DNA of 38,600 bases from Candidatus Nanopelagicales bacterium. Lineage in GTDB: Bacteria > Actinomycetota > Actinomycetes > S36-B12. The translations under genes were made by a program, and so were the position numbers. Location: positions 1-38,600 of the forward strand of contig SHUQ01000007.1 in assembly GCA_009694585.1 (NCBI GenBank), written 5' to 3'. Under the pieces are notes generated by a model. The model searched no databases, had not been told where the DNA came from, and saw nothing but the letters and a program-made list of their open reading frames with translations. The number at the start of each line of letters is the position of its first letter. The stretch's first letter is position 1. This document shows positions 6,457 to 12,419 of the stretch, in pieces.

Positions 6457-8894
6457 CCACCGATCCCTGCGATCGGGGTAACCCCGGGGGAGCCGGTGCC
6501 ATCTCGCTTCCCCCAGGTGGTCGGTAGATCGGCAGGGACGCCAGAGGCTGTTGCAGCCCGCGCCGGGCCAATACCAACCCAAGCGACCAGCAAACTATCC
6601 TCGCCGGAGCGGAACTTGTGGCAGCGCACGCCACCGGTACCTCGACCCTTTGCCGGGTACTCCACAAGCGGGGTGACCTTAATGCTGCCTGCATCGGTGC
6701 CCGGCAGTGCGTCGGCCGAACCGGCGATAGTTACCACTACTGCCGTATCGGCTGGTTGAAGCGCGGTAAAGGAAACCACCTGTGCACCGGGGTTAAGGCG
6801 AACACCAACCATCCCGCCCGCCGCCCGACCTTGAGGCCGGACCGCGCTTGCGGCAAATCTAAGTAGTTGACCATCGGAAGTGACGAAAACCAACTCCGCA
6901 GTTTCTGCAGCAGCCTCGCTCAGGCCGATTGCACCAACAACTAAGTCATCAGCGTCGAGTCGAATGATGTCCCATGAGTCTTTGTTTGAAAGTGCGTCTG
7001 GGATAACCCTCTTGATGATTCCACTCGCCGTGGCAAGAGCAATGCCACTCGTATCGTCAAGGGTAGTTAGGCACAAGGCACTTTCGCCCAGCGGCAGGTC
7101 CACAAAAGCGCCTATCGGAGCTCCTGCTGATAGCGCGGGTATCCCGACTACGGAAGGCAGGGCGGGTAGATCGACTACCGACAGTCGCACTATGCGCCCA
7201 GCGCTGGTCACTAAGCCGATGAATCCGCGGTTGGTCGCGGGTACTGCACTGACTATCACATCGTGGTTTGCCCTGCTGCTTTCGACAGCGTCATCAAATA
7301 CTGGGTCGGCAATTCGTGCCAGTAGTCCGGTACTAGACATCAGAACCACGCAGGGTTCGTCATAGACTTCAAGTGGTACCGCGGCTGATATCGAAGCCGC
7401 ACCTGCTTCCATCAGCAAGGTGCGACGCCCAGTCGTGTGGGCCTGGGAGATTGCGGCCAGTTCATCGGAAACTACGGTCCGCAGTTGGCTGTCGTCGTCG
7501 ATGATCGCAGATAGCGTCGCAATGTCGCCATTTAAAACAGCAGATTCTTTTTCTAGTTCAATTCGTGAAAATTTTGTCAATCTCCGCAGTGGCATTTCAA
7601 GTATGTAAGAGGTCTGAACCTCACTGAGATCGAACACCTCAATCAGGCGGACCTTGGCCGCGGCCGCATCGTCGGATTCGCGAATAAGTTGTATAATTTC
7701 ATCAATGTCGATAATGGCGATAAGGAGGCCAGCCACCAGATGCAGACGATCTTGGGCTTTGGTCCGACGAAAAAGGCTACGGCGCCGCACAACTTCGAGT
7801 CGATGATCGATGAAAACATGCAATAGCGTGAGTAAGCCCAATGTCTGCGGTTGCCCTTCCACGAGTGCCACCGCATTGATATTTACCGATTCTTCCATTG
7901 GCGTGAGCTTGAATAGGTTCTCAAGTACGGCTTCAGGGTGGAACCCATTCTTAACATCTATCACCAAGTTGAGTCCAGAGTCACCGTCGGTTAGATCAGT
8001 TACGTTTGCAATCCCCACCAGCTTCTTGTTTTGCACAAGATCCTTAATGCGCTCGATGATCCTTTCGGGACCAACGTTCATTGGTAATTCCGTGACGATT
8101 ATGCCCCGACGCCTAGGGGAGACTTGGTCAATACGGGTGCGAGCTCTAACCCGAAAAGTGCCTCGTCCGCTTTCATAAGCTTCACGTACCCCGCTCAGGC
8201 CAATTATTACCCCACCGCCGGGCAGGTCAGGTCCGGGGATGAACTTCATGACCTCGCCAAGGGCCGCCTTTGGATGCTTAATTAGGTGGCGGGCTGCGCC
8301 TATTACCTCGCCAAGGTTGTGGGGGACCAAGGTGGTTGCCATGCCAACGGCGATCCCTGAAGCTCCATTTACGAGGAGGTTTGGAATCGCGGCGGGCAGC
8401 ACCATCGGCTCGGTTTCGCGACCATCGTAGTTTGGAACAAAATCGACCACATCTTCGTCAAGACTCAAGGTCATATCAAGCGCTGAGGCAGCTAGCCGAG
8501 CTTCGGTGTAGCGCATAGCGGCTGGGCCGTCGTCAAGTGAACCAAAGTTGCCGTGGCCATCGACCATGGGCAGGCGCAAGGTAAATGGCTGAGCCATTCT
8601 AACGAGTGCGTCGTAGATTGCTGAATCCCCATGTGGATGCAGGCGGCCCATTACTTCACCAACGACGCGGGCACTTTTCACATGCCCGCGTTCTGGTCTA
8701 AGTCCCATTTGCGCCATCTGAAACAGAATTCGTCGTTGTACCGGTTTAAGCCCATCGCGCGCATCAGGTAGTGCCCGAGCGTAAATAACCGAATAGGCGT
8801 ACTCCAAGAATGAGGCTCGCATTTCATCGGAAACGTCAATATCGACGATGCGGCCATCACCGGGGGCAACCGGCTTGGTAGAGCGCCTAGCCAT
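6447..8894 (-). CDS. parC: Type IIA topoisomerase subunit A (ParC-like)
   Basis: [48 protein letters not shown] (catalytic Tyr downstream, RYTEARL). Start moved to ATG 8894 (MARRSTKP). Confidence 0.93.
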
Positions 8895-9932: not shown

Positions 9933-11042
9933 TTGCCGGCCATTAATTCACAAATGACCCCGCCCAGTCTGGCCGAGGTTGGTACCTCGGCCGCGGCCAG
10001 CGTTGGTGTGCCCGGTTACACCGATTCACTTGGGCTAGGGGAGGTCCAGCATGTGGTGATCTGCCTAATTGATGGACTTGGCTGGCGTTCACTTATCGAA
10101 TTTGGGGCGCATGCACCCGCGCTGATAGCAATTGGAGGCCGCCCATTGCATTCGGTTTTCCCGACAACAACTCCGACGGCACTTGGTTCACTGGGCACCG
10201 GGCTATTGCCCGGAACCCACGGACTGGTGGGAGCCACCTTCTTCCTGCCGGAAACACAATCGGTGTTGGCGCCACTTCGTTGGAAAACCGATCCACTTCC
10301 ATTAATGGTGCAACCGGAGACGACGGTCTTTGAACGGGTTGCCCGCCACGGAGTTCAGATGATTACCGTAGCCCCCGCGAAGTATGAGTTTTCCGGGCTC
10401 ACTACTGCGGCCCTGCGGGGCGGGACCTATCGATGCGCGGAAGATATTGCCCAAAGAGTTAGTGGCCTGCAAGCTGCAATCTGTGGAGCCAAGAAGTCAT
10501 ACACGTATGTCTATTGGTTTGAACTTGACCGGATCGGTCACAAGTTTGGCGTCGGAAGTACACCTTGGGTGGCTGGGCTAGTGCGCGCCAATGTGCTCGT
10601 GGATCAGTTGTCACAGCAATTGCCACCTAATGCCGCAATGATTGTCACGGCCGACCACGGGATGATCAACTGCGAAGTCGGCGACCACATTTCAATTGAG
10701 CAGCACCAAGAGTTGAACTCGGATTTGAAATTGATCGCCGGCGAGCCTCGGGCGCGGCACCTATATACCCACCCAGGTGCCGCTGAAACGGTAGCTCACC
10801 GTTGGTCGCAGTATTTGGGTTCGAGGGCGAAAGTTTTCACTCGAGACCAGATTATGGAGTCTGGTTGGCTCGGACCCACCGACCTTGAGCTAGTCGATCG
10901 AATCGGAGATGTGGTGTGCATCGCTGAAGGTGCCACGATGTTGACGAGTTTGGTTGATGCCAAAACTTCGTCCCTTATTGGCCAGCATGGTGCACTAACC
11001 CCCGCTGAACTTGAGATCCCCGGTCTCATAATTCGGACTTGA
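9933..11042 (+). CDS. Alkaline phosphatase / nucleotide pyrophosphatase-superfamily protein
   Basis: VVICLIDGLGWRSL, SVFPTTTPTALGSLGTGLLPGTHGLVG, YVYWFELDRIGHKFG, MIVTADHGMI. Confidence 0.88.
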   Translation: MPAINSQMTPPSLAEVGTSAAASVGVPGYTDSLGLGEVQHVVICLIDGLGWRSLIEFGAHAPALIAIGGRPLHSVFPTTTPTALGSLGTGLLPGTHGLVGATFFLPETQSVLAPLRWKTDPLPLMVQPETTVFERVARHGVQMITVAPAKYEFSGLTTAALRGGTYRCAEDIAQRVSGLQAAICGAKKSYTYVYWFELDRIGHKFGVGSTPWVAGLVRANVLVDQLSQQLPPNAAMIVTADHGMINCEVGDHISIEQHQELNSDLKLIAGEPRARHLYTHPGAAETVAHRWSQYLGSRAKVFTRDQIMESGWLGPTDLELVDRIGDVVCIAEGATMLTSLVDAKTSSLIGQHGALTPAELEIPGLIIRT

Positions 11043-11079: not shown

Positions 11080-11574
11080 GTGGCCGAGCTAATATTCTTC
11101 GCGGGCACCATGGACTGCGGTAAATCCACCTTGGCACTTCAGACCGACCACAATCACTCGTCAAGGGGTAGATTCGGCTTGGTGTTCACCAGGTTAGATC
11201 GAGCTGGTGAGTCGGTGTTATCGAGTCGGCTTGGGCTAAGTGTTACTGCCATAGAGGTTACTGAGTCCCTTGATATCCGTGCGCATCTTGTTGACGCACT
11301 TTCGCGGGGCGATCGAGTTCAAGTGCTGCAGGTTGAGGCACTGTGCTGGTGTGGGATGCGGGCGATTCACAATGCGCGAACCGTCGATGGCGTTGTGGTG
11401 GTCGAAGGTAGCCAGGTAATGGTGGGCGATGTAGGCGAAGGGGTCGGCGCCCGGATTGATATCCCCGTGGTCTCATACGAGGTGCTATGCCGCCGTCACT
11501 ACCGCGCCCGGAAAACGGCGCTAAGTGCGGGAGTCGAGCATATGTCACGCGAGCCACTGCCCTTTGAGGCTTAG
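11080..11574 (+). CDS. tdk: Thymidine kinase with internal in-frame deletion (catalytic segment missing)
   Basis: P-loop FFAGTMDCGKSTLALQ and C-terminal VLQVEALCWCG...EGSQVMVGDVGE...YEVLCRRHY match actinobacterial Tdk. The segment expected between RGDRV and RVQVLQVEALCWCG (containing DEAQF) is absent; 164 aa in total. Confidence 0.9.
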   Translation: MAELIFFAGTMDCGKSTLALQTDHNHSSRGRFGLVFTRLDRAGESVLSSRLGLSVTAIEVTESLDIRAHLVDALSRGDRVQVLQVEALCWCGMRAIHNARTVDGVVVVEGSQVMVGDVGEGVGARIDIPVVSYEVLCRRHYRARKTALSAGVEHMSREPLPFEA

Positions 11575-11597: not shown

Positions 11598-12344
11598 CTA
11601 AACGTCATCCCCACGAGTTGAACCAAAAAGGATTTCATCCCAACTAGGCACGCTTGCACGCTTACCTTTAGTTTTAGGCTTTGGTGCGGGTTTAGTTGGC
11701 CGATCATAACGTGGCCTGCTAACTGGTTCATCGATCGGGATCAAGACATCAAGGACTTGATCGTCAATCTTGACGTCGGTTTTCCTTGGGGCATCTGGTA
11801 CTGCAACCAGTCGCGGGCGCTCGACACTAGATTCATCGCTAGGTAGGGCATCGATAGTCTCGCCCTTGTTCGCATGGACGTTTACAATCGCGATTGGCTC
11901 ATCAATGATGTAGTCAAAAATCTGATCGTCGCTAACTCCCATGAGTCGACGTGCACTTTCGTCAAGGGGGTGAACGCTGCGGCCAACATTGTCATACGTC
12001 CACGAAGCATGTTGGGTTGCGCCATGGCCGGTGAAGGTAACCAGCACCACCCACTTAGAATCCGCGCGCCGGGCCGCATCCCATTCGATATCAGCGGCGC
12101 CATCGATTCGCAATGCCGCGGCCACGGCCTCACCTAGTGTTACCGAACTGCCGGTGCGTCGAATCTCGACCAGTTGCGCACGACTGGCCACGTATTCACG
12201 TTCGGCAAGCGGTGGGCCGGCGTAGCGCTGCACTTTCTCCAATGCCCAACCCGTCTGGGCAGCCACGATCTCCACAGAGGCTCCGGCGCGTACGCGGGCC
12301 TGAATCTCTTTGGGGCTGAGCGGTTCCAGAGCGAACTCCGTAGG
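11598..12344 (-). CDS. sepH: Septation protein SepH (DUF3071), N-terminally truncated; tracked start is GTG 12275
   Basis: SepH-like PTEFALEPLSPKEIQARVRAGASVEIVAAQTGWALEKVQRYAGPPLAEREYVASRAQ; C-terminal basic tail with PSWDEILFG. Homology runs 23 codons upstream of GTG 12275 to a TAA at 12345-12347 with no ATG/GTG/TTG in between. Confidence 0.75.
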   Translation of the reverse strand, partial: PTEFALEPLSPKEIQARVRAGASVEIVAAQTGWALEKVQRYAGPPLAEREYVASRAQLVEIRRTGSSVTLGEAVAAALRIDGAADIEWDAARRADSKWVVLVTFTGHGATQHASWTYDNVGRSVHPLDESARRLMGVSDDQIFDYIIDEPIAIVNVHANKGETIDALPSDESSVERPRLVAVPDAPRKTDVKIDDQVLDVLIPIDEPVSRPRYDRPTKPAPKPKTKGKRASVPSWDEILFGSTRGDDV

Positions 12345-12419
12345 TTAGATGAAGATGTTAATGCTCAGAACTTAGCGCGCCCGGGTGCCCGCCGGGCGCA
12401 TAGGCCGCAACTTGCCTAG

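Follow-up and report, generated by a model that had tools for sequence, protein, structure and literature searches.

The closest described counterpart of the gene studied here is the actinobacterial type II thymidine kinase (Tdk; NF003297/PF00265). In the thymidine kinase of Leishmania major, E85 is essential and is placed to act as a base (PMC4433323), and family alignment assigns this residue to the glutamate of the DE(A/V)QF motif. Absence of the enzyme from a small freshwater genome has a precedent in acI strain C1, which is reported to lack thymidine kinase, thymidine phosphorylase and other enzymes of salvage (PMC5301498). In E. coli K12, recent pseudogenes have arisen by RecA-independent deletion between short direct repeats, in which a segment of a dispensable gene was lost and one repeat copy kept (PMC5426353). 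Bacterial production in lakes can be measured by the uptake of labelled thymidine, most of which Actinobacteria reportedly carry out (PMC2810431).

We compared these systems with a gene in the window, that is, the whole 38,600-nucleotide stretch of DNA analysed, which belongs to a MAG (G000) of 1.69 Mb in 104 contigs, 84% complete. Its named congeners are freshwater 'Actinomycetota' MAGs, and its family-level relatives are named Candidatus Nanopelagicales. The product is 92% identical to the Tdk of a congener over the retained residues and has the P-loop, the CxC and CRRH zinc ligands and the lasso in common with the actinobacterial enzyme, but it lacks 57 core residues and falls under both curated cut-offs. 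We consider it probable that a recent deletion has inactivated an ordinary actinobacterial type II thymidine kinase gene, a dispensable salvage gene, and left a young loss-of-function allele; this would most likely be ordinary gene decay or loss, a new instance of a known event and not a new kind of protein. It resembles the E. coli K12 pseudogenes in having lost a segment of a dispensable gene with one repeat left; it differs in that the repeat pair is reconstructed from two congeners and the reading frame is kept (PMC5426353). Like acI strain C1, the organism belongs to the free-living, small-genome freshwater actinobacteria and would be losing the same enzyme (PMC5301498); it keeps ThyX. 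It differs in that a partial thymidine phosphorylase gene is present and tdk is caught with an internal deletion. A literature search for in-frame-deleted bacterial Tdk returned nothing on point.

The tdk locus and its missing block

The open reading frame at 11080-11574 (+ strand) begins with GTG at 11080, ends with a stop at 11574 and encodes 164 amino acids in an unbroken frame. Judged from its sequence, it is a type II thymidine kinase minus a core block. The retained parts fit the NCBIfam thymidine kinase profile NF003297 at E 1.4e-60, so the match is not due to chance, although the score of 204.6 bits lies below the 252-bit cut-off; the PF00265 score of 17.5 bits is likewise below its cut-off of 20.6. 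An intact congener Tdk exceeds both cut-offs, scoring 345.3 and 71.1, respectively. The gene also sits where it does in the congeners, between a type I phosphodiesterase-like gene upstream (9933-11042, + strand) and sepH downstream (11598 to about 12337-12347, - strand), with a DUF5998 gene farther upstream than the phosphodiesterase gene.

The initial annotation described a clean in-frame excision of the DEAQF/Walker B block, and alignment with close relatives bears this out: all eight tdk-bearing congeners encode a full-length protein of 221 residues, against which the window Tdk shows a single gap. The proposed size of about 50 residues or 150 bp was somewhat low, as exactly 57 residues (171 bp) are missing. 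Two other genera of the family give the same result, with the block present in 10 of 10 relatives and the window Tdk otherwise collinear, and at the DNA level the spacing is exactly 171 bp in every relative compared. The missing block begins with the D-Y-L-I-C-D-E-A-Q-F strand, ends at the S of S-D-R-V-Q and includes Walker B, the catalytic glutamate (DEAQF) and the TDFRT...LFPGSARL segment. It covers 22 columns that are invariant among 29 intact homologues, including D86, E87, F90, D118, F119, P125, G126 and S127, and the glutamate to which the essential Leishmania E85 is aligned.

Outside the gap, the congener alignment supports the earlier reading that the recognized motifs survive. These are the invariant P-loop (Walker A) segment AGTMDCGKS at 11101-11127, in which the motif GxMxxGKS/T is present as GTMDCGKS (11104-11127); the zinc-ligand motifs CWCG (11344-11355) and CRRH (11488-11499); and the segment EGSQVMVGD (11407-11433), whose role as the thymidine lasso is taken from PMC4433323; all lie on the + strand. 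The Walker B/catalytic glutamate motif (DExQF), by contrast with these kept motifs, is absent from the ORF and from the rest of the genome. With the 57-residue block as query, no G000 contig gave a match, while three control genomes were positive at E 4e-31 to 6e-26, and no full-length PF00265 match was found in G000. A second tdk copy or a relocated DEAQF block is thereby ruled out for this assembly. With a block of the catalytic core deleted, the protein would not be expected to function as a kinase, in line with the earlier proposal, and we expect the 164-residue product to be inactive or unstable.

Structural predictions point the same way. Mapped on the model of an intact congener, the block accounts for strand 82-86, helix 93-106, strand 109-115 and helix 125-133. 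AlphaFold2 returned a mean pLDDT of 51.6 and a pTM of 0.39 for the short form and 71.7 and 0.64 for the intact congener with nearly the same alignment, a comparison that is weak evidence given alignments of 30 rows. The drop in confidence was greatest in the P-loop half, where block means fell from 68-97 in the intact protein to 41-69 in the short one. In structure searches, the intact model found solved thymidine kinases at E 2e-10, and the short model had no match at E <= 0.001. The models thus agree with a predicted break of the core sheet, in which strands of the central sheet would be gone together with the catalytic base.

The deletion junction and a short direct repeat

Codon alignments place the junction at codons 77-81 (11308-11322, + strand), which read GGC-GATCGAGTT-CAA at the point where the congeners carry the additional 171 bp (57 codons). 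Congener comparison suggests that GATCGAGTT, coding for DRV, is the sole remaining copy of a short repeat (11311-11319, + strand); because of the repeat, the exact breakpoint can be placed anywhere within about 11311-11319. In two congeners, G003 and G008, the block is bounded on either side by GACCGGGTT, an exact 9-nt direct repeat with a spacing of 171 nt, and both copies encode DRV (Asp-Arg-Val) in the same frame. In the G008 gene this pair is the only repeat of that length at a spacing of 30 or more. When all possible deletions of 60-300 nt were considered in the G003 and G008 genes, junction homology of at least 9 nt occurred at about 1 in 10,000 start points. In the remaining six of the eight congeners a few mismatches break up the repeat, leaving in-register runs of 2-5 nt.

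The suggestion that slippage between short direct repeats produced the gap is strengthened by the exact repeat in these two congeners, and on this sequence comparison a slippage deletion is plausible, with the repeat pair itself read from G003 and G008. Slipped misalignment or annealing between the two short DRV-coding repeats probably caused the single 171-bp deletion, which took two strands and two helices out of the nucleotide-binding core along with Walker B and the catalytic glutamate. As both copies read DRV and share their frame, the reading frame would survive without selection. The clean frame is therefore not evidence of retained function, and the case illustrates that preservation of the frame by a deletion is no guarantee of a working product.

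Age of the deletion and competing explanations

We searched 85 family genomes, including G000, with a match threshold of E <= 1e-6. Among the 62 with a tdk match, G000 alone gave an unbroken match over residues 1-164; the others matched in two stretches flanking an extra block or were cut by a contig end. Among named genomes, the best 80 loci each cover roughly the full length of Tdk. As the species is sampled by one genome, uniqueness of the short form is uniqueness across family genomes. A genus-wide short form is ruled out by the intact gene in all eight congeners that carry tdk.

We also asked how the retained codons have evolved. Across the 164 codons, dN to congeners is 0.059-0.077 and mean omega is 0.048, compared with 0.042 among intact congeners, values that are read against saturated synonymous distances (dS 1.0-2.0). 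Distances to two outgroups tell the same story, with dN of 0.247 and 0.199 for the retained codons and 0.225-0.267 and 0.193-0.219 for the intact congeners. In relative-rate counts, private amino-acid changes in the window Tdk never exceed those of the congener compared. At columns invariant in all ten other sequences it has one private change, V70L; the intact genes of G001 and G004 have three and four. No relaxed constraint was thus detected in the retained codons by omega, outgroup dN or relative-rate counts. These values indicate that normal constraint acted on the gene along almost the entire branch. Two readings follow: the deletion happened very recently, or the gene is intact in the living population and the contig represents a minority or artefactual variant.

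The second of these possibilities is the stronger rival, and we rate it as unlikely but deserving of weight. It holds that the population tdk is intact and that an assembly, binning or consensus effect produced a chimeric or minority path skipping 171 bp. The fragmentation of the MAG, the occurrence of the short form in no other genome and the lack of decay in the retained codons, which is what a living intact gene would give, are all consistent with it. Against it, the stretch shared between the two edges is only about 9-11 nt, far below the word lengths at which assemblers join sequences. Metagenome assemblers normally use k-mers longer than 9-11 nt. Moreover, the 57-residue piece lies on no other contig of the bin, and seven other window genes (DUF5998, PDE, SepH, MFS, IMP, GyrB and GyrA) have no gap of at least 10 residues shared against most congeners, which also rules out a deletion-ridden contig. 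The shortness of the repeat and the soundness of these seven genes together favour a deletion that is real in the cells.

Among the outcomes initially proposed, an early pseudogene fits best, as the 171-bp lesion is unique to G000 and removes essential residues. That the short protein is maintained in a new role, for example as a nucleoside- or nucleotide-binding or regulatory protein, is very improbable. In its favour, the reading frame is uninterrupted, start and stop are in place, every known retained motif (P-loop, zinc site and lasso) is intact, and the codons remain constrained at an omega of about 0.05. However, a recent event accounts fully for this constraint and is in our view the best explanation of it, and the preserved frame follows from repeat geometry and carries no signal of selection. 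The short form is known from one genome only, two central strands are gone, and the low AlphaFold2 confidence (mean pLDDT 51.6) comes with no significant fold match, so the earlier suggestion of a repurposed nucleotide-binding protein finds no support. The narrower version, in which a catalytically dead 164-residue Tdk fold is kept to bind thymidine or dTTP and no longer acts as a kinase, is more improbable still.

Thymidine salvage in the family and the neighbouring sepH

A young loss-of-function allele accords with what the family and the genome indicate about the need for Tdk. No tdk match was detectable in 23 of the 85 family genomes, G000 encodes the de novo dTTP enzymes ThyX and thymidylate kinase, and the acI report describes the same absence (PMC5301498); by these three observations Tdk is dispensable in this group, and its loss is common and tolerable. 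Tdk was found in 0 of 9, 0 of 3 and 0 of 2 genomes of the genera g26, g8 and g6, many of which are more than 90% complete. The distribution is patchy by genus, with presence and absence mixed in g7, g5 and g2, a pattern of repeated loss of thymidine salvage. In another genus, the two halves of tdk at G065:C25:26927-27743 lie about 190 nt farther apart than usual and in different frames, which suggests an independent lesion or an assembly fault.

Were the deletion carried by the cell, dTMP would be made de novo via ThyX and direct thymidine salvage would end. Replacement of Tdk by another deoxynucleoside kinase is ruled out for PF01712, of which no member was found in G000 or its congeners. Nor is there evidence for a general loss of thymidine salvage in G000. 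A partial thymidine phosphorylase gene lies at G000:C64:6696-7540; the contig is 7540 bases long and the match stops at 7538, so the gene is merely cut by the contig end, which is why a search with the N-terminal domain misses it. Should the population indeed carry the deletion, thymidine salvage would have been caught during its loss in a free-living freshwater actinobacterium, and loss of Tdk within a genus would bear on the labelled-thymidine method of measuring production.

The sepH gene downstream of tdk is itself short. Here and in all congeners checked it is without its N-terminal part, and the match to the SepH/DUF3071 model begins at position 72; because the congeners have the same short form, a second deletion, in sepH, is ruled out. 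A TAA lies just upstream in the sepH frame, and the ATG of some congeners is ACG in others. A conserved CTG (the Leu before EPL/QPL) lies 6-7 nt downstream of a GGAG, and at one locus (L039) a stop falls between the two. The GGAG and the conserved CTG suggest a CTG start codon, and a short SepH with a non-ATG start appears to be family-wide.
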